From Veillonella seminalis (GTDB lineage Bacteria > Bacillota > Negativicutes > Veillonellales > Veillonellaceae): a stretch of DNA of 64,000 nucleotides. The translations under genes were made by a program, and so were the position numbers. The notes under the pieces are model-generated. The model had not been told where the DNA came from and did no database searches. It saw only the letters and a program-made list of their open reading frames with translations. Where the stretch lies: positions 1 through 64,000 of the forward strand of contig NZ_RQUZ01000001.1 in NCBI RefSeq assembly GCF_003992065.1, in the 5' to 3' direction. Shown here piece after piece: positions 24,742-58,269 of the stretch. Each line of letters opens with the position of its first letter. Positions within the stretch are counted from its first letter, which is position 1.

Positions 24742-25016
24742 TTGACAAAGTATATTTGTTGTGAGAGAATAGCAACAATCAAATGAGATATGTGATGAAC
24801 AGGTATAAAGAACTATTTAGTTGCTTACAGAGAGTTGCCGGTCGGTGTGAGGCAATAGAACGGATAGTATCGAAACTCGCCTGCGAGCATTGTGGCTGAA
24901 CCTCAGTAAGCCGTGACGGTAGTTCCGTTATAACTGCAAGAGAACCAACTAGGGTGGTACCGTGTTATAGTTTATGATGCCCCTGGAACACATTATGTGA
25001 TTCCGGGGGCTTTTTT
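24742..25016 (+). promoter_or_regulatory. Leucine T-box leader with promoter and terminator
   Basis: TTGACA (24742-24747) and GAGAAT (24765-24770) are 17 bases apart. The RNA has the Stem I AG-bulge motif AGAGAG, a distal loop GGTGTGAG (24844-24851), the specifier loop with codon CTC at 24876-24878 (GAAACTCGCC), and the T-box AGGGTGGTACCGTG at about 24951-24964. A terminator GCCCCTGGAA/TTCCGGGGGC follows (24979-24988 with 25001-25010) with six T. Binding of uncharged tRNA-Leu (anticodon GAG) is expected to favour antitermination and expression of leuA onward. Confidence 0.92.
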
Positions 25017-32314: not shown

Positions 32315-32637
32315 TTGACTTCTTAATTCGCTTGTGTGTATAATTGAACAAAACATATAGTTATCATCTGCGAACAGGAAGAGTAGGTATACGAGTTCGG
32401 CTACAGCGAGTCGGGAATGGTGGAAGCCCGGTGCAAGAAAGTATAGTGAATGGACCTGGGAGATGTGGCCCGAACTGAGGGTAGGCGCCACCGGTCATCT
32501 CCGACCGTTACCAAAGGAGCGCGTATCGCCTGTATTGGGTAGGCCGTACGTAGTGAGCCGGGTCTTTTGACCAATCGGGGTGGCACCGCGGATTAACCTT
32601 CGTCCCTATATATTTTGGGATTGGAAGGTTTTTTTTA
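32315..32637 (+). promoter_or_regulatory. Tryptophan T-box leader with promoter and terminator
   Basis: TTGACT (32315-32320) and TATAAT (32339-32344) lie 18 bases apart. Stem I has AGCGAG and the distal loop GGTGGAAG; the specifier is TGG at 32451-32453 (GAATGGACC), the only Trp codon. The T-box GGGGTGGCACCGCG is at 32577-32590. A terminator AACCTTC/GAAGGTT follows (32595-32601 with 32624-32630) with eight T. The leader should sense uncharged tRNA-Trp and switch on the transporter genes behind it. Confidence 0.93.
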
Positions 32638-49046: not shown

Positions 49047-49408
49047 TTGACAGTATTAATTCATAGTGTTATAGTAGGTTTATGATTTGAATAGAAATTA
49101 GGACGAGGAAGAGAAAAGTACATATACTGTTGTATGTGCAGCGAGCCCGGATGGTGAAAGCGGGTCTTATGAAGTGTATGGAAGTGCATCTCGGAGTTAT
49201 TAAGGCAAAGCTATAGCAATATAGGGGAGTCTTTTTCGGGGGTCGCCCGTTACAGCGAATCTGTATAGTATGAACTGATAGGAGTTAAGGCTCCGGAGAA
49301 TATTTGTTCAAGGTACAGCAAAGGTTTGATTGTGCGCACAGTCAAATGAAACAAGGTGGAACCGCGATATATCGCCCTTGGTCACAAACGTGACCAAGGG
49401 CTTTTTTT
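49047..49408 (+). promoter_or_regulatory. Cysteine T-box leader with promoter and terminator
   Basis: TTGACA (49047-49052) and TATAGT (49070-49075) lie 17 bases apart. Stem I shows AGCGAG and the distal loop GGTGAAAG (49152-49160). The specifier is TGC at 49185-49187 (GAAGTGCATC), a Cys codon. The T-box AAGGTGGAACCGCG is at 49353-49366 and the terminator GCCCTTGGTCAC/GTGACCAAGGGC is at 49374-49401 with seven T. It should sense uncharged tRNA-Cys and control cysK and perhaps cysE. Confidence 0.92.
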
Positions 49409-49441: not shown

Positions 49442-50371
49442 ATGATTATTATGAGTACAGAACCTGTAAATGACACATTAAAATTGATTGGTAATACTCC
49501 TGTATATCAAATTGGGGAATCTAATGTTTTTGTAAAATTGGAAAAATACAATGCCGGCGGCAGTGTTAAAGACCGTGCCGTATATGGTATGTTGCGCGAC
49601 GCTCAACAGAAAGGTTTGATTAAACCTGACACTATTTTGGTAGAAGCAACTTCCGGTAACACCGGTATCGCACTTGCTATGTTGGGTGCTGTTATGGGTA
49701 TTAAAGTTGTTATCTTGATGCCTGAAAGCATGAGTAAAGAACGTCGTGAATTAGTAAAAGCTTACGGTGCTCAGTTGATTTTGACTCCAAAAGCAACCGG
49801 TATGAAAGGTGCTTTAGCTAAAGCTCAGGAAATTCTTGATGCTAACCCAAGTGCCGTAACTTTAGGCCAGTTCGTAAACCCTGCCAACCCTGGCATTCAC
49901 TACGAAACAACAGCTACCGAAATTCTTGAACAAGTTCCAAATGTAGGCATCGTAGTAGCCGGCGCTGGTACCGGCGGTACATTCACCGGGGTAGCTCGTA
50001 AATTGAAAGAACATAATGCTAACGTGAAAGCTGTTGCGGTTGAACCTGCCGGTTCCCCAATGATTTCCGAAGGCAAGGGCGGCGCTCATAAAATTCAAGG
50101 TATCGGTGCCGGTTTTATTCCTGAAAACTTTGATCAATCCCTTATGGATGAAGTTGTAACTGTAACTGATGATGATGCAATTGCTCAAGTACAGACTTTC
50201 ATGCGTGAAAGCGGTATCAGCATCGGTATTTCCGCCGGCGCAGCTATTAAAGCAGCTAAAGATTTAGCCACTAAAAACCCTGGCGTGCCTGTAGTAGCTA
50301 TCGCTCCGGACGGAGTTGAAAAATACTTATCTATGCTTGAATTTGATGATGTAGAATACGTAAAAGCCTAA
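49442..50371 (+). CDS. cysK: Cysteine synthase A (O-acetylserine sulfhydrylase)
   Basis: A 309-residue PLP enzyme that makes cysteine from O-acetylserine and sulfide. It has NTPVY, the PLP lysine in GGSVKDRA, the substrate loop EATSGNTGIAL, and GAGTGGTFTGVARKL for the phosphate. The start is ATG 49442 or ATG 49451; AAAGGA lies close to the first. Codon choice (GCT, GGT, AAA) suggests high expression. It stands behind the Cys T-box, 129 bases before cysE. Confidence 0.96.
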   Translation: MIIMSTEPVNDTLKLIGNTPVYQIGESNVFVKLEKYNAGGSVKDRAVYGMLRDAQQKGLIKPDTILVEATSGNTGIALAMLGAVMGIKVVILMPESMSKERRELVKAYGAQLILTPKATGMKGALAKAQEILDANPSAVTLGQFVNPANPGIHYETTATEILEQVPNVGIVVAGAGTGGTFTGVARKLKEHNANVKAVAVEPAGSPMISEGKGGAHKIQGIGAGFIPENFDQSLMDEVVTVTDDDAIAQVQTFMRESGISIGISAGAAIKAAKDLATKNPGVPVVAIAPDGVEKYLSMLEFDDVEYVKA

Positions 50372-51501: not shown

Positions 51502-51942
51502 TTACTCCGCGTCCGGATATGTATCGATAAGATAATCCATAGCTTCGAGATAGCCTTGTAAGCCGTGGCCTTTAATCGTTTTTTCCGCATATTCGCTTAC
51601 ATAGGAGTAATGGCGGAAGGATTCACGTTCGTCGGGATTCGAAATATGAACCTCAACGGTCGGCAGGCCGATGGCTTTTAATGCATCCAAAATCGCAACC
51701 GATGTGTGTGTATAGGCGGCCGGATTGATGATAATCGCCTCGGCATCATTGTGGGCTGCTTGAATTCGATCGACGAGGCTGCCCTCGTGATTGCTTTGGT
51801 AGAAACTAACGGCCACATGACGTTCATGGGCGTGCTGTCGAATCATTTGAATGAGATGTTCATACGTTTCAGAACCGTAAATATCCGGTTCTCTTAAACC
51901 TAACAGATTAATATTAGGACCGTTAAGAATTAAAATGTGCAT
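51502..51942 (-). CDS. aroQ: 3-dehydroquinate dehydratase, type II
   Basis: A 146-residue type II dehydroquinase. It begins ILILNGPNINLLGLREPDIYG with the catalytic loop and Tyr, and has NPAAYTHTSVAILDAL and VEVHISNPDERESFRHYS. It converts dehydroquinate to dehydroshikimate. GAGGAGG precedes ATG 51942, inside the end of aroE-aroK (20-base overlap). It is the last gene of the aro operon. Confidence 0.96.
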   Translation of the reverse strand: MHILILNGPNINLLGLREPDIYGSETYEHLIQMIRQHAHERHVAVSFYQSNHEGSLVDRIQAAHNDAEAIIINPAAYTHTSVAILDALKAIGLPTVEVHISNPDERESFRHYSYVSEYAEKTIKGHGLQGYLEAMDYLIDTYPDAE

Positions 51943-53182
51943 GGTATTCCTCCTCGATGTGTTGAGCGCCGTCGTTCGGATTGACTATGTCAAAAGCACA
52001 CTGTGAAAATGCGTCATAGAGAGGTTGCCGAACGGCATATAAAGATTTCAAGCGACTCAGACCGCCTTGCGAAAGAGGGCGACCGTCAACGGCCAGGTTT
52101 TCCAATGGGCGGCGAATCCAATAAATGCGTCCGTTTTGACGTAAAATCGGATAATTAACCGATTGTGTCACAACACCGCCGCCGGTAGCAATAATTGCAC
52201 CGGTAGTTTTGCAAAGTTTAGCCAAAAGAGCCGTCTCTTTTTCACGAAAGGCGGGCTCGCCATGAGTGGCGATGTATTCGCCGGGATGGCAGTAGCGTTT
52301 TTCAAATTCATCATCACAATCAATGAAAGGCCGTTGCAATCGTTCGGCTAAAGCAATGCCTACCGTAGTCTTGCCTACGCCGGGCATGCCGATGAGGACG
52401 ATATTTTCCTGTTGGTGGCGCATTTGGCGAATGATGGTTTCTGTAGCCTCCGGTTCAAAATCTTTTTGCATGAATAATTTGGCGGTTGCTACAGCCTGAC
52501 TTATCAACATAGGCAGGCCGTCGGTGTAGGGAATATTACGTCGCTCGGCGTCGATGAGGAGTGCCGTACGGTAGGGGTTATAGATTACATCGGCGACACC
52601 TTTAAGTTGTGGAAAGTCATCCAATGAAATCAACGCTTCCGGACAATTCGGATAGGTACCTACCGGCGTTGCATTAATGAGTACATCCGCATCGGCTCCG
52701 AAGGTAGCGGCTTCGCTGTAAAAAGGTTCAGTTTTACGGGACAGATGGATAATTTCACGTGCACCTAAATCGATCAGGGCTACATGAATCGTGTGAGCCG
52801 TGGCACCGTCACCAAGGACAATTACTTTTTGATCCTTAATATTGATGCCGGCCCACTCCAACATATAGATAAATCCGTCGTAGTCTGTATTGTGACCGTA
52901 CCAACTCCCGTCGGTTTGGCGCACCATGGTATTGACGGCACCGATATGTTTGGCAGCGTCGGATAGGGTTTGGCAGGCACTCATGACGTCTTTTTTATAA
53001 GGAATCGTCACATTTAAACCTTTTAGTTCCGGTTGAGCTAAAAACTCTGTCAGCTCTTGAGGAGCTCGTTCGTACAGTACATAGTGGGGATTGCCCAGAG
53101 CGTTATGAATTTGTGGCGAGTAGCTGTGCCCCAAGGTTTTGCCCAAAAGGCCAAAAGGGGTTAGAGCAGAATTTTGATTCAT
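51923..53182 (-). CDS. aroE: Fused shikimate dehydrogenase and shikimate kinase
   Basis: A 419-residue two-domain enzyme. Residues 1-255 are AroE: substrate loop GHSYSPQIHNA, catalytic Lys/Asp in LNVTIPYKKD and NTDYDGF, and the NADP loop VLGDGATAHTIH, where the usual GAGGA is GDGATA. Residues about 262-419 are AroK with Walker A GMPGVGKTT, DCDDEFE, and GGGVV with the shikimate-binding site. The fusion joins steps four and five of the pathway. It follows aroC by 61 bases. Confidence 0.94.
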   Translation of the reverse strand: MNQNSALTPFGLLGKTLGHSYSPQIHNALGNPHYVLYERAPQELTEFLAQPELKGLNVTIPYKKDVMSACQTLSDAAKHIGAVNTMVRQTDGSWYGHNTDYDGFIYMLEWAGINIKDQKVIVLGDGATAHTIHVALIDLGAREIIHLSRKTEPFYSEAATFGADADVLINATPVGTYPNCPEALISLDDFPQLKGVADVIYNPYRTALLIDAERRNIPYTDGLPMLISQAVATAKLFMQKDFEPEATETIIRQMRHQQENIVLIGMPGVGKTTVGIALAERLQRPFIDCDDEFEKRYCHPGEYIATHGEPAFREKETALLAKLCKTTGAIIATGGGVVTQSVNYPILRQNGRIYWIRRPLENLAVDGRPLSQGGLSRLKSLYAVRQPLYDAFSQCAFDIVNPNDGAQHIEEEYHAHFNS

Positions 53183-53243: not shown

Positions 53244-54338
53244 TCAGTCGAGTTTAAGGTCATTGTCCAATAAAAAATCCAATAAAATTAAGGCGGTTAC
53301 GGCTTCTACGACCGGTACGGCCCGAACAGCGATGCAAGGGTCATGGCGGCCTTTAATTTGTAAATCCGTATTGGCACCGGCTTCATAGCTGAAACTTGGT
53401 TGTACTTTGGCGATGGAAGCAGTCGGTTTCATGCCTACTTTTAGGACGAGCGGCATACCGTTGGTGATGCCTCCTTGAATACCGCCGCTGTTATTGTTTA
53501 AGGTGCGAACTTCACCGTTTTCCAAACGAAACGGATCATTTTGATTGGAACCGCGGTCGAGGCAACCGTCAAAACCGCTGCCAAAGGCAACGCCTTTAAC
53601 ACCCGGAATACCAAAGAGGACCTGACTGAGGCGATTTTCGATGCCGTCAAAATTCGGGTTGCCCAGACCGGCCGGCAAGCCGGTGGCAAATAATTCAATG
53701 ATGCCGCCCGTAGAATCACCTTCCTGGCGGAGTTCGTCAATATAGGTGATGGCTCTGAGGCGTGACTGTGAAGATACCATAGCTACGGTTTCGTGGCTTA
53801 CTTTTTGCAGTGCATCCATGTCCGGATCGGTAAAGCTGATTGTTCGGTCTTGAACGGAACCGATTTGTTTTAAATGGGCTCCGATTTCAATGCCTTTGGC
53901 TTTAAGTATTTGAAGGGCAATGCCGCCGGCGCAGCAAAGGGGGGCCGTTAAGCGACCTGAGAAATGACCGCCGCCACGCATATCAACGGCCTCACCGTAA
54001 CGCATGCGAGCCGTATAATCCGCATGGGACGGGCGAGGGATATCGCGCAGATTGTTATAATCTTTGGATTGTTGATTGGTGTTTTCAATATAAAAAGCCA
54101 GTGGTGAACCGCTGAGTTTACCGTTCACAAGGCCGCTCAGAAAGATCGGTTGATCCGCTTCTTTGCGCTGTGTCGTAATTAAACTTTGTCCCGGTGCACG
54201 TCGTTTCATAAAACGAGCAAGGGCGGCCTCATCAATTAAAATGCCGCAAGGCAGGCCGTCTACTACGGCGCCGATGGCTTTGCCGTGGGATGCACCAAAC
54301 ACGGAAATAGTAAGATTTTTGCCAAAACTCGAACTCAT
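53244..54338 (-). CDS. aroC: Chorismate synthase
   Basis: A 364-residue AroC, the last step to chorismate, using reduced FMN. Conserved patches are FGASHGKAIGAVVDGLPCG, the RPSHADYTARMRYG region with Asn/His, GGGHFSGRLTA and GGIQGGITNGMP. The start is ATG 54338 after CAGGAG. The gene is co-directional between aroA and aroE-aroK. Confidence 0.96.
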   Translation of the reverse strand: MSSSFGKNLTISVFGASHGKAIGAVVDGLPCGILIDEAALARFMKRRAPGQSLITTQRKEADQPIFLSGLVNGKLSGSPLAFYIENTNQQSKDYNNLRDIPRPSHADYTARMRYGEAVDMRGGGHFSGRLTAPLCCAGGIALQILKAKGIEIGAHLKQIGSVQDRTISFTDPDMDALQKVSHETVAMVSSQSRLRAITYIDELRQEGDSTGGIIELFATGLPAGLGNPNFDGIENRLSQVLFGIPGVKGVAFGSGFDGCLDRGSNQNDPFRLENGEVRTLNNNSGGIQGGITNGMPLVLKVGMKPTASIAKVQPSFSYEAGANTDLQIKGRHDPCIAVRAVPVVEAVTALILLDFLLDNDLKLD

Positions 54339-54416: not shown

Positions 54417-55784
54417 TTATTCGGCATGACCGCCCAATTCATTCCAGTGTTTGAAAAATAAAGGATAGGATTTATTGATGGCCTGGCTGTCGGTAATAGT
54501 GATCGGGTCATCGCTGAATAGAGCCATGAGTGAAGCCGCCATGACAAGGCGATGATCATTATGTGAGGTTACGGTGCCGCCTGTAAGACGTCCCGTACCG
54601 TTGATGTACAGATTATCTCCTTCAATGTGAGCGGTTCCGCCTAAAGTGCGTACTAAATCGCGTACCGCCAATAAGCGGTCAGATTCTTTAAGGCGCAAAC
54701 GTTCACCGTTAATAAACCAGCTTTCGCCTTCGATGCTGCAAGCCAGGGCAGCCAATACCGGCAACAAGTCGGGACATTGTTCTAAATCAACCGTAATCGG
54801 GGCGATGGCTCTGCCTTCACAATGAAGACGTAGCGGTGTTTTTATATTGTCCAATTGATCGTCTTCAATAACGGTACCGTCTTCGGTTTGCCATTCTACG
54901 GTTGTTCCGGCACAATCAATGATATCCAATATACGTTTATCCGCTTGGGTAGAATCCGGTTGTAAGTTGGTGATGGTAAGCGGCTGACCGGTGATGGCAG
55001 CCGCAACGAGCCAAATGGCACTATTTGACCAATCGCCTTCAATCGGATAATTTTCGAGGCCGTGGTAGTGTTGGCCTTTTGGTACGGTAAAACTGTTGCC
55101 GTCATCGGTTGTATAGGCCATAACGCCAAAATCTGCCATTACATGACGAGTTAACGTCACATAATCGCGAGATTGTAATGGCGTAGTGCTGTTTATTAAG
55201 GTATCTTCATCCAATTTCGGTGAAGCCAATAAGAGTCCGGAGAAAAACTGGCTGCTCACATTACCTACCATTTCAAAAAGGCCGCCCGTTAAATGACCGC
55301 TGATTGTAAACGGCGGTTTGGTTGCGGAAAAGGTGATGCCGTGAGCTTCCAATTGACTTTTCAGCGGTTCCAACGGCCGATCGGGTAAGCGACCGGCGGC
55401 GGTTACATCCGTGGTATCGCAAATGGCGGAACCCACCGATAAAAGGAGGCGCAAAGTCGTGCCTGATTCATGTGCATCAATTGTGCCGTGGCTTTGATTT
55501 TCGGGGATTGATATAACGCGAACCCCACTCTCTGTTTTCTCAATAATGGCACCTAAACCGCGTAATGAGGCAATGGTGGCGTCAATATCTTCTGAATAGT
55601 GGGCAATCAGTAAGGTAGACGGACTGTCCGCCAAGGCGGCGGCAATGAGGGCCCGATGGGCATGTGCTTTAGCGGGAATCGCCGCAATGGTACCGGTTGG
55701 TATAGCGGCAGAGACCGTTTTAAATTCAGTGTTGGCGGTCGTAACCTTGATTGGTTCAAATTCAGATGGATTAGTTGGCACCAT
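54417..55784 (-). CDS. aroA: 3-phosphoshikimate 1-carboxyvinyltransferase (EPSP synthase)
   Basis: A 455-residue EPSP synthase. It has the paired inside-out repeats, the SKS-type region changed to AIPAKAHAHRALIAAAL, the glycine loop ESGTTLRLLLSVG, VSSQFFSGLLLASP, and the C-terminal SHNDHRLVMAASL. The PAKAHAHRA start in place of the usual SKSxTxRA is a noticeable variation and may affect glyphosate binding, which is inference. It overlaps aroB by 14 bases, with AAGGAGG upstream. Confidence 0.92.
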   Translation of the reverse strand: MVPTNPSEFEPIKVTTANTEFKTVSAAIPTGTIAAIPAKAHAHRALIAAALADSPSTLLIAHYSEDIDATIASLRGLGAIIEKTESGVRVISIPENQSHGTIDAHESGTTLRLLLSVGSAICDTTDVTAAGRLPDRPLEPLKSQLEAHGITFSATKPPFTISGHLTGGLFEMVGNVSSQFFSGLLLASPKLDEDTLINSTTPLQSRDYVTLTRHVMADFGVMAYTTDDGNSFTVPKGQHYHGLENYPIEGDWSNSAIWLVAAAITGQPLTITNLQPDSTQADKRILDIIDCAGTTVEWQTEDGTVIEDDQLDNIKTPLRLHCEGRAIAPITVDLEQCPDLLPVLAALACSIEGESWFINGERLRLKESDRLLAVRDLVRTLGGTAHIEGDNLYINGTGRLTGGTVTSHNDHRLVMAASLMALFSDDPITITDSQAINKSYPLFFKHWNELGGHAE

Positions 55785-56853
55785 GATGTGTTACCTCCTT
55801 AATGGCATAATCGGCTAATTTGCTGTGATCCACAGTGCGTAGTTCGCAGTGGCCCCAACGAGTGGGATAGATAATCGTGATAGTTTGACCATGGCTTTTT
55901 TTATCGTGTAAAGCAGCTTGGCAAAGCTCCGTAGTACTGATTGTTGTAGTAATCGGTAACTTGTGAGCGGTGAGTAAATGTAAGAAATCGGTTAATTCGG
56001 ATTCGCTGATGTGGCCGTTTTGATAAGCGGCGCGCATCATCAGTGCCATGCCGATGCTGACAGCCATGCCGTGTTTGACGGTGAAATGACTGCAAAGCTC
56101 AATGCCGTGACCGAAGGTGTGACCGAAGTTGAGTAAGGCTCTCACGCCGGCTTCTTTTTCATCGGCACTGACAATTTTTGCTTTCGCTTTAACACATAAG
56201 GCGATAATAGCTTCAATATGAGCCAAATCGGTTTGCTGTAACGGCTTAGTCGCTAAATCGGCCAATAATTCGGGATAATCGAGCATGCCGTATTTGATGA
56301 CCTCGCCGCAACCGTTACTGAATTCATCAGCCGGTAAGGTACTGATGGCTGTAGGATCGCAAAGAACCAAAATCGGTTGTTTGAACGCACCCCACAAATT
56401 TTTGCCCGCTTTTAAATTGACCGCTGTTTTACCACCTACGGAGGAGTCCACCGCAGCCAACAGGGATGTAGGCATTTGGATATAGTCGATACCGCGTAAA
56501 TAGGTGGCCGCCGCAAAACCCGCCATGTCGCCCACTACACCGCCGCCCAGGGCAATGAGTAAATCCTTGCGAGTGAGGGCTTTTTCAGCCATGAATTCCA
56601 CTAAATCTATGAGTCGTGAGGCATTTTTTTCAGCTTCACCATGGGGGAAGACGTATTCATATACCGTGTAGCCCGCTGCCGTAAGCTGATTCTTGACGAG
56701 TGAGCCATAGAGCGGTGCCACGTTGTCATCGCTGACGAGTACTGTGGGACAGGGCTTTTTGAGCGGCTCTATATAATCCGTAATATGTTGTAATACATTG
56801 TCTTCAATAATGACATCATAGGCAGTCGAGGCTTCGATATGAATACGTTCCAT
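55771..56853 (-). CDS. aroB: 3-dehydroquinate synthase
   Basis: A 360-residue AroB that closes the ring of DAHP using NAD and a metal. It has the NAD loop GGGVVGDMAGFAAATYLRGIDYIQMPTSLLAAVDSSVGGKTAVN, then the zinc ligands in NFGHTFGHGIE and the histidine VKHGMAVSIGM. The start ATG 56853 follows AAGGAG. Nine bases separate it from aroF. Confidence 0.96.
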   Translation of the reverse strand: MERIHIEASTAYDVIIEDNVLQHITDYIEPLKKPCPTVLVSDDNVAPLYGSLVKNQLTAAGYTVYEYVFPHGEAEKNASRLIDLVEFMAEKALTRKDLLIALGGGVVGDMAGFAAATYLRGIDYIQMPTSLLAAVDSSVGGKTAVNLKAGKNLWGAFKQPILVLCDPTAISTLPADEFSNGCGEVIKYGMLDYPELLADLATKPLQQTDLAHIEAIIALCVKAKAKIVSADEKEAGVRALLNFGHTFGHGIELCSHFTVKHGMAVSIGMALMMRAAYQNGHISESELTDFLHLLTAHKLPITTTISTTELCQAALHDKKSHGQTITIIYPTRWGHCELRTVDHSKLADYAIKEVTHHGAN

Positions 56854-56862
56854 GATAACTCC

Positions 56863-57870
56863 TTAATCTGCATTTAAAATTTTGCGCATAGCAAATACTT
56901 CTTTGGTAAGGGAAGCAAATTGATCGGGACGCAATGCTTGCGGGCCGTCACAAAGGGCTTTAGCCGGATCGATGTGAACTTCAATCATGAGACCGTCGGC
57001 ACCGCCACCGGTAGAAGCTAAGGACAAGGGACGAACCATGCGGCTCATGCCGGCAGCGTGGCTCGGATCCATGATAATCGGTAAGTGACTTAGCTCGTGA
57101 ATCATCGGAATAGCCGTTACATCAAGGGTGTTACGGGTTTTGGTTTCGAAGGTACGAATGCCGCGTTCGCAAAGTACGATTTGCGTATTGCCTTCGCTCA
57201 TGATGTATTCGGCAGCCATCAACCATTCTTCGTAGGTAGCGGATAAGCCGCGTTTTAAGAGAACCGGTTTCTTTAATTTGCCCACTTCTTTGAGTAAGGT
57301 GAAGTTCTGCATATTACGGGCGCCGATTTGAAGCATGTCCACATTATCGAAATACTGTAATTGCGACGGATCCATGACTTCGGATACGATTGGTAAGCCG
57401 GTTTCTTTCTTGGCCAATTCCAATAAATGTAAACCTTCAGGCCCCATGCCTTGGAAGGAGTATGGCGAAGTACGCGGTTTGAAAGCACCGCCGCGAAGGA
57501 TGGTAGCACCGGCTTCTTTGACGGCTTTGGCCGTAGCCAATACTTGTTCCGGTGTTTCTACGGAGCAAGGTCCGGCCATGATCGCGAAGTGGCCGCCCCC
57601 AATTTTTACGCCACTTACGTCTACGATGGTGTCTTCCGGATGGAATTTACGGTTCGCTTTTTTGAACGGTTCTTGAATACGAGTAACTTTTTCAACAATA
57701 TCCAAGGATTCAATCTGGCGTTTGTCGACGAGTGAAGTATCGCCGATGAGGCCGATTAATGAGTAGTTATCGCCTTTGCTTGGATGTAAGGTAATTCTTT
57801 GCACTTCCAATTTAAGGCGTAACTCTTGAATCTTCTCCGGACTGGCATTTTCCTTTAACGTAATAATCAT
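56863..57870 (-). CDS. aroF: 3-deoxy-7-phosphoheptulonate synthase (DAHP synthase)
   Basis: A 335-residue type I-beta DAHP synthase from ATG 57870 (GAGGAG upstream); the longer frame of 18 residues is unsupported. The N-terminal 70 residues are a ferredoxin-like/ACT-type regulatory domain, as in the Thermotoga enzyme that is inhibited by Tyr and Phe. The barrel has [42 protein letters not shown] and DPSHAAG with metal ligands. It is the first aro gene and lies behind a leader peptide attenuator. Confidence 0.94.
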
Positions 57871-58045: not shown

Positions 58046-58084
58046 AAAAAAGGAGCTACCCGCGTGCACTACGGGTAGCTCCTT
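58046..58084 (-). terminator. Attenuator terminator of the aro operon
   Basis: Read on the minus strand, AAGGAGCTACCCG and CGGGTAGCTCCTT (plus 58072-58084 and 58050-58062) form a perfect 13-bp stem with a 9-base loop, followed by at least six T. It stands between the leader peptide and aroF. The sequence TACCCGTAG in its 5' part (plus 58069-58077) can pair instead with CTACGGGTA inside the leader peptide (plus 58139-58147), nine perfect pairs, which would block the terminator. Confidence 0.9.
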
Positions 58085-58115
58085 AACTATACTAAGCCTA
58101 ACAATGATACCGAAA

Positions 58116-58208
58116 TCAGCGTAGCCCAAATAGTCCTTTACCCGTAGCCTGGATAAAGAACCAAAAATAGAAGTATTGGCTGTTCATAGTGCTGATTGCT
58201 GAGTTCAT
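58116..58208 (-). CDS. Leader peptide of the aro operon, rich in Phe, Tyr and Trp
   Basis: A 30-codon peptide with AGGAG eight bases before ATG 58208, starting about 26 bases after the promoter start point. Residues 11-18 read QYFYFWFF: four Phe, two Tyr and one Trp within eight residues. The 3' part of the peptide overlaps the sequence that competes for the terminator. This is the layout of a classical pheA/trp-type ribosome-mediated attenuator: stalling at aromatic codons when charged tRNA is short should free the antiterminator. The peptide itself has no other likely job. Confidence 0.9.
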   Translation of the reverse strand: MNSAISTMNSQYFYFWFFIQATGKGLFGLR

Positions 58209-58232
58209 TCAGTTGGCTCCTTTCTAAAGTGA

Positions 58233-58269
58233 TTGCCAACATTATAAACCTACGATTCTATCTTGGCAA
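58233..58269 (-). promoter_or_regulatory. aro operon promoter flanked by an inverted repeat
   Basis: On the minus strand TTGCCA (plus 58264-58269) and TATAAT (plus 58241-58246) are exactly 17 bases apart. The 7-base inverted repeat TTGGCAA/TTGCCAA (plus 58263-58269 and 58233-58239) spans the promoter from -35 to the start point and could be a regulator site. Confidence 0.75.

Follow-up and report, generated by a model that had tools for sequence, protein, structure and literature searches.

The shikimate operon of Veillonella seminalis is preceded by a leader that very probably (probability of about 0.88) functions as a classical ribosome-mediated transcription attenuator for the whole operon. 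We infer that it senses the charging of Phe and Tyr tRNAs and, in many but not all species, that of Trp tRNA. The leader is located on the minus strand of the window (the whole stretch of 64,000 nucleotides that was analyzed), between the ribonucleotide reductase beta gene and aroF. The sequence contains the elements of an attenuator: an open reading frame (ORF) led by a Shine-Dalgarno sequence, a run of cognate codons, a terminator before aroF, a mutually exclusive antiterminator and a spacing suited to a stalled ribosome. Here an SD-led ORF means that a Shine-Dalgarno sequence and a start codon are present in the sequence; its translation is predicted. Our analysis establishes the anatomy of the leader, its conservation and its alternative pairings, which are predicted to change with the position of the ribosome. 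The features of the leader are as follows:

58241..58269, minus strand: promoter, TTGCCA (58269-58264), 17-nt spacer and TATAAT (58246-58241), recognized in the sequence by its match to the consensus
58217..58223, minus strand: Shine-Dalgarno sequence AAAGGAG of the leader peptide, seen in the sequence and aligned in relatives
58116..58208, minus strand: leader peptide ORF, 30 codons plus TGA, MNSAISTMNSQYFYFWFFIQATGKGLFGLR, conserved upstream of aroF in the family
58155..58175, minus strand: control codons 12-18, YFYFWFF (Tyr 2, Phe 4, Trp 1), identified by aromatic density relative to shuffles
58151..58162, minus strand: segment 1, GGUUCUUUAUCC, pairing with segment 2 if free of the ribosome (313 of 318 aligned cells paired in 27 Veillonellaceae)
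58139..58147, minus strand: segment 2, CUACGGGUA, codons 21-24, 5' strand of the antiterminator (225 of 241 cells paired with segment 3)
58069..58077, minus strand: segment 3, UACCCGUAG, which forms the 5' arm of the terminator or pairs with segment 2 (nine perfect pairs)
58046..58084, minus strand: intrinsic terminator, a 14-bp GC-rich stem (58084-58050) followed by a U run (in the family, 330 of 338 cells are paired and five changes are two-sided)

Most of this anatomy had been proposed in an earlier note made from the sequence letters. The promoter, the 30-codon peptide with its good ribosome site and the perfect nine-base alternative pairing between CUACGGGUA (58147-58139) and UACCCGUAG (58077-58069) were all found where it had placed them, and translation confirmed seven aromatics among the eight residues of the QYFYFWFF core. 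The terminator with its T run is also present before aroF, with a stem of 14 pairs rather than the 13 first described. The promoter hexamers match 11 of 12 consensus positions, and comparable hexamers (TTGCAT/TATACT and TTGCCA/TATACT) accompany other Veillonellaceae leaders. By count alone, the promoter-like matches in the region are not above chance (3 vs. 1.8 expected from shuffles). Terminator-like sites number 3 vs. 0.4 expected in shuffles, and the leader RNA folds more stably than 200 out of 200 dinucleotide shuffles (z = -4.5).

Downstream of the leader, six genes on one strand (aroF-aroB-aroA-aroC-aroE/K-aroQ) encode a complete route to chorismate and are presumably co-transcribed:

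56863..57870, minus strand: aroF, DAHP synthase (PRK08673 / TIGR01361), first gene of the operon, by model match and a start common to relatives
55771..56853, minus strand: aroB, 3-dehydroquinate synthase, by model match
54417..55784, minus strand: aroA, EPSP synthase, by model match
53244..54338, minus strand: aroC, chorismate synthase, by model match
51923..53182, minus strand: aroE-aroK fusion, shikimate dehydrogenase and kinase, by domain matches along the protein
51502..51942, minus strand: aroQ, type II 3-dehydroquinase, by domain/model match

The aroE-aroK product did not reach the full-length model cut-offs, as expected for a fused protein. The most likely start of aroF is 57870 rather than 57924: as in relatives, the protein then begins with MIITLKEN and the gene has a ribosome site of its own. 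The protein is 96% identical to AroF of Veillonella ratti ATCC 17746. We found neither an aromatic leader nor an Rfam element ahead of pheA and the two chorismate-binding genes of this genome, so that, of the genes examined, only those of the common pathway have the device.

In the mechanism that we propose, the promoter of the window is presumably used and the ribosome presumably stalls on the control codons. Transcription would start roughly 25-30 nt ahead of the leader ORF, and a ribosome would trail the polymerase. When charged Phe or Tyr tRNA (or Trp tRNA, where it is coded) is short, the ribosome would stall in YFYFWFF and cover segment 1, leaving segment 2 free. Segment 2 (CUACGGGUA) would then capture segment 3 (UACCCGUAG) as it emerges, no terminator would form and aroF-B-A-C-E/K-Q would be transcribed. 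When aromatics are plentiful, the ribosome would pass the run and either cover segment 2 while segment 3 is being made or leave a 1:2 hairpin behind; segment 3 would then pair with segment 4, and transcription would end before aroF.

To assess how widely the leader is conserved, we counted SD-led ORFs upstream of aroF with at least five aromatic residues in 12, excluding one upstream region (L145) from the counts. Such an ORF is present in 26 out of 27 Veillonellaceae, 21 out of 22 other Veillonellales and 45 out of 74 further loci (taken from named public records and for the most part clostridial), and in 4.2% of shuffled upstream regions. The sole Veillonellaceae exception (L054) has four aromatics because its Trp codon is GGG, and a leader peptide is present in every Veillonellaceae aroF region that was read. 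A search with the 30-residue peptide as query matched 24 out of 60 relatives, all of one family; reading upstream of aroF added the rest. Within the Veillonellaceae, the run occurs in frame as QYFYFWFFIQ, KQYFYWFFIQ, NTFFWFFIQ, YAYFWYFTQ, PYFFWYYFFT and YAYFNFIS; the order and number of the aromatics vary and the run is kept, which fits sensing by codon identity rather than a specific arrest peptide.

Leaders of other lineages include, for instance, IEYVFTYFSWGYFYFSAGYFCYDKFN upstream of aroF in other Veillonellales, FYSFFYFTFWGFYFSAGYLFCRKLNN in Clostridium species, SYNYYYYFNF in Peptostreptococcus porci and short leaders such as MKTAVFFYAYSYYYYFREKN in many Oscillospiraceae-type genomes. About half of the 40 aroF copies from other Negativicutes orders have such a leader (e.g., QKQYFYFFGWSYFFSFDFFGWEKVN and FSQGYYFSAGYFALGKIEY), with a terminator behind it in all 20 that were checked; none was found in family f14, from which several genomes were sampled. 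A terminator lies downstream of nearly every aromatic leader, and the order leader-terminator-aroF is preserved across orders and classes. The comparison of Negativicutes aroF upstream regions that the earlier note had called for thus gave recurring aromatic runs, terminators and alternative pairings, and its attenuator reading gains support from homologous leaders in the Veillonellaceae, their order, many other Negativicutes and many Clostridia. The leader that it had picked out as unusual in this window is real, and belongs to a widespread arrangement rather than one peculiar to the window. Some Negativicutes carry tandem aroF pairs (G128, with loci L167 and L168, G108, G073 and G137), and in G128 each copy has a separate, differing aromatic leader. 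In other Clostridia, aroF loci L070-L074, L076 and L078-L082, among others, have neither an aromatic leader nor a T-box, and several leaderless clostridial loci still carry a terminator-like hairpin before aroF.

Joint sensing of Phe, Tyr and Trp, as originally suggested, describes only some of these leaders. Phe and Tyr codons are common throughout (112 Phe, 55 Tyr and 24 Trp in Veillonellaceae leaders; 216, 190 and 19 in clostridial ones), while Trp codons are absent from 31 out of 45 clostridial leaders and TGG is replaced by GGG in two Veillonellaceae. These Trp-less leaders and TGG-to-GGG changes make Phe and Tyr the common signal, and Trp looks like an optional component added in many lineages.

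In the Veillonellaceae, three helices can be drawn: 1:2 (GGUUCUUUAUCC/GGGUAAAGGACU), 2:3 (CUACGGGUA/UACCCGUAG) and 3:4 (the terminator). Across 27 distinct sequences, 98%, 93% and 98% of their cells are paired, with two-sided changes at 2, 2 and 5 pairs, respectively. Covariation is thus slight for the antiterminator 2:3, which is nearly invariant within the family; because this helix hardly varies there, the case for it is built on its exact retention and on what other lineages show. In those lineages, the 3' part of the leader complements the 5' arm of its own terminator despite quite different sequences, as in ACGGGUA:UACCCGU, GCGAUUUGUGCG:CGCACGGAUCGC, GUGGUUUGUGCG:CGCACGGACCAC, AAUAUCGGU:ACCGAUAUU, UGAUGAGUC:GACUCAUCA, GUAAUUUGUG:CGCAGGUUAC, UCGGUAUG:CAUACCGA, UAAUGAGU:ACUCAUUA and AUGGAG:CUCCAU.

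The leader-terminator complementarity of the window is matched by 1% of composition shuffles. By the same measure, p <= 0.05 was obtained for 22 out of 28 Veillonellaceae and 18 out of 48 other loci. Pairings in the rest of the Veillonellales (Megasphaera/Dialister-type) span 6-7 bp and only 2 out of 21 beat composition shuffles; those of other Negativicutes orders are also short (3 out of 20 beat shuffles). A duplex test on the whole leader with dinucleotide shuffles is weaker for the window (p 0.21) and weak for single loci in general (p <= 0.05 in 27 out of 97). In a register-anchored covariation test on 14 clostridial leaders, pairing was not above that of swapped arms, partly because bulges shift the register. 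For the clostridial loci, complementarity is seen to persist across the compared sequences while the sequence changes, and we do not claim formal covariation.

To model the effect of ribosome position, we masked 30 nt as the ribosome footprint and folded the RNA as far as the 3' end of segment 3. For the window leader, the predicted probability of helix 2:3 lies at 0.78-0.98 while the A site is at any of codons 12-18, and at 0.00 for codons 19-28. In V. parvula-type leaders, it is ~0 in the ribosome-free RNA, climbs as high as 0.88 when the ribosome stands on the aromatic codons and returns to 0 immediately after them. In 40 out of 54 loci with a credible pairing, a stall on one or more of the aromatic codons brings the probability to at least 0.5; past the aromatic run, nearly all 54 fall to ~0 at some position. 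In many short clostridial leaders, segment 2 begins 14-18 nt past the last aromatic codon, which is the reach of a stalled ribosome. For one genus-level group of five genomes (L052, L053 and L055-L057), the mask model yields no antiterminator. Footprint arithmetic predicts that stalling would work best at codons 14-17 of the window leader (Tyr, Phe, Trp, Phe). When the window leader up to segment 3 is folded with no ribosome on it, 2:3 is favored at equilibrium (0.69-0.98, depending on the cut point), and with a ribosome at or near the stop codon the probability rises again, to 0.55-0.94 (0.01 at the stop with a slightly different cut). Because both states are predicted to permit 2:3 at equilibrium, the "off" state must rely on a 1:2 hairpin made earlier or on timing.

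Three other explanations have to be weighed against attenuation. The nascent leader could itself stall the ribosome, as TnaC does, perhaps with a bound free aromatic, in which case the residues would matter and not tRNA charging. The tail FIQxTGKxLFxLR is conserved in the Veillonellaceae and an S-x-G-Y motif recurs in other leaders, as an arrest peptide would have it. However, the order and number of aromatics vary freely among lineages, the conserved Veillonella tail coincides with the RNA stretch that pairs with both segment 1 and segment 3, and the conserved Ser is AGC in 38 out of 39 leaders, which points to a constraint on nucleotides. We therefore regard arrest by the peptide as improbable. 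Less probable again is that the terminator ends an independent small transcript (a small protein, an sRNA or the end of the upstream reductase genes) and that aroF has its own promoter downstream. The gap of ~180 nt between terminator and aroF would leave space for one, but it contains no promoter-like match on the minus strand and shrinks to only ~60-70 nt in most other Veillonella. Moreover, the reductase gene has its own terminator-like site (58396-58374), and the retention of the leader-terminator-aroF order across orders and classes speaks against an unrelated transcript.

The last alternative, and the least probable of the three, is that the ORF is incidental to another RNA device, such as a T-box, TRAP, a metabolite riboswitch or a leader-binding protein. 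The three T-boxes in the same window and the unusual stability of the leader RNA would fit such a device, but our searches argue against it. No known Rfam leader family matched the window leader at gathering or relaxed thresholds (best E 0.39, for unrelated families far below their cut-offs), and a search of the leader for a T-box (Stem I with specifier, T-box sequence, RF00230) gave no match. Nor did a search of 40 related aroF loci with and without leaders, meant to show whether T-boxes take over in leaderless species, find any. The genome has no match to the TRAP (mtrB) model PF02081, for which the B. subtilis control was positive. In addition, the aromatic ORF is far commoner than in shuffles.

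Attenuation of this type is well known from the enterobacterial pheA (pheL), trp (trpL) and his leaders, with their control codons, 1:2, 2:3 and 3:4 structures and intrinsic terminator, whereas in Firmicutes the genes for aromatic amino acids are usually said to be under the control of T-boxes, TRAP or DNA-binding repressors. The window leader shares with the enterobacterial leaders the control codons, the alternative structures and the biosynthetic operon of the sensed amino acid; unlike it, they read one amino acid each, serve end-product branches and belong to another phylum. No Rfam leader family matched the window leader. Candidate His leader attenuators have been reported in Firmicutes, which mostly rely on T-boxes (B. 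cereus group, Eubacteriales and Erysipelotrichales; PMC2965389, PMC9413887), with similar control codons and alternative hairpins but before His genes.

The closest described counterpart in function is aroR of Corynebacterium glutamicum, a case of leader-peptide attenuation of aroF (Neshat et al. 2014, as cited in PMC11802643; also PMC4046766). According to the account in PMC11802643, a short leader peptide, there with Phe-Tyr-Phe, precedes the DAHP synthase operon, and ribosome stalling is reported to raise transcription under Phe limitation; by this description alone, it has the same job and mechanism as those proposed for the window leader. It differs in belonging to an Actinobacterium, in having three aromatics vs. 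seven and, reportedly, in showing no response to Tyr. The uORFC-13-1 motif upstream of aroF in Acholeplasma, a comparative prediction only, likewise combines a predicted promoter, a uORF with Phe codon(s) and a terminator before aroF (PMC8632094). However, it is described as limited to Acholeplasma and environmental sequences, has only "at least one" Phe and is described without a mixed aromatic run; the same study reports other RNA motifs from Veillonella, but not this one (PMC8632094).

In the open-access literature that we searched, we found no aroF leader attenuator described for Veillonella, Negativicutes or Clostridia. The mechanism is of a known kind, while its occurrence here, the mixed aromatic run and its breadth appear to be new. 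A leader that reads Phe, Tyr and often Trp codons before the common pathway would be a simple way to sense all end products together. If this holds in Negativicutes and in many Clostridia, among them commensals of the gut and mouth, attenuation would be a major regulatory mode for the pathway in the phylum. It would also annotate small ORFs that present libraries miss: five leader peptides searched against NCBIfam gave no matches, and those tested had no NCBIfam or Rfam match.

Some leaders may carry a further element. In 39 leaders of the W-G-Y-x-F-S-x-G-Y type, which are related by descent and are not independent events, Ser is encoded by AGC in 38 while neighboring codons vary synonymously. 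The RNA there, UUUAGC-NNN-GGYUA, has the potential to fold into a small hairpin, of 4 pairs in 27 leaders and of 3 in 11. This pattern suggests a constraint on the RNA, and not on the peptide, common to Clostridium and Negativicutes. The shorter UUUAGC-NNN-GGYU occurs in the coding part of S-x-G-Y leaders L061-L063, L099, L109, L122, L133, L136, L140, L144-L162 and L167-L201. Leaders of this type also have a conserved terminator arm RRCUCAU, with which an AUGAG in the leader is able to pair in many of them. One tentative and rather doubtful reading is an ancient, class-spanning leader family (F-x-W/Q-G-Y-x-F-S-x-G-Y-F-x-C-x-K) in many non-Veillonellaceae lineages of Negativicutes and several Clostridium species, in which the nearly invariant UUUAGC-NNN-GGYU of the coding RNA, with its potential 4-bp hairpin, has a second function in addition to the control codons; Veillonella would have lost the element and evolved YFYFWFF. 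If so, the second function could be, for instance, to pause transcription or the ribosome and so keep polymerase and ribosome synchronized.

The window also contains three T-boxes, at 49097-49382, 24786-24987 and 32361-32610, all on the plus strand. All three, which the earlier note had counted, are real, and two score above the Rfam cut-off; the remaining one (86.7 bits, cut-off 93) falls just below it and directly precedes a cysteine-synthase-like gene at 49442. A pan motif (RF01749) lies at 32160-32058 on the minus strand, divergent from the T-box at 32361.
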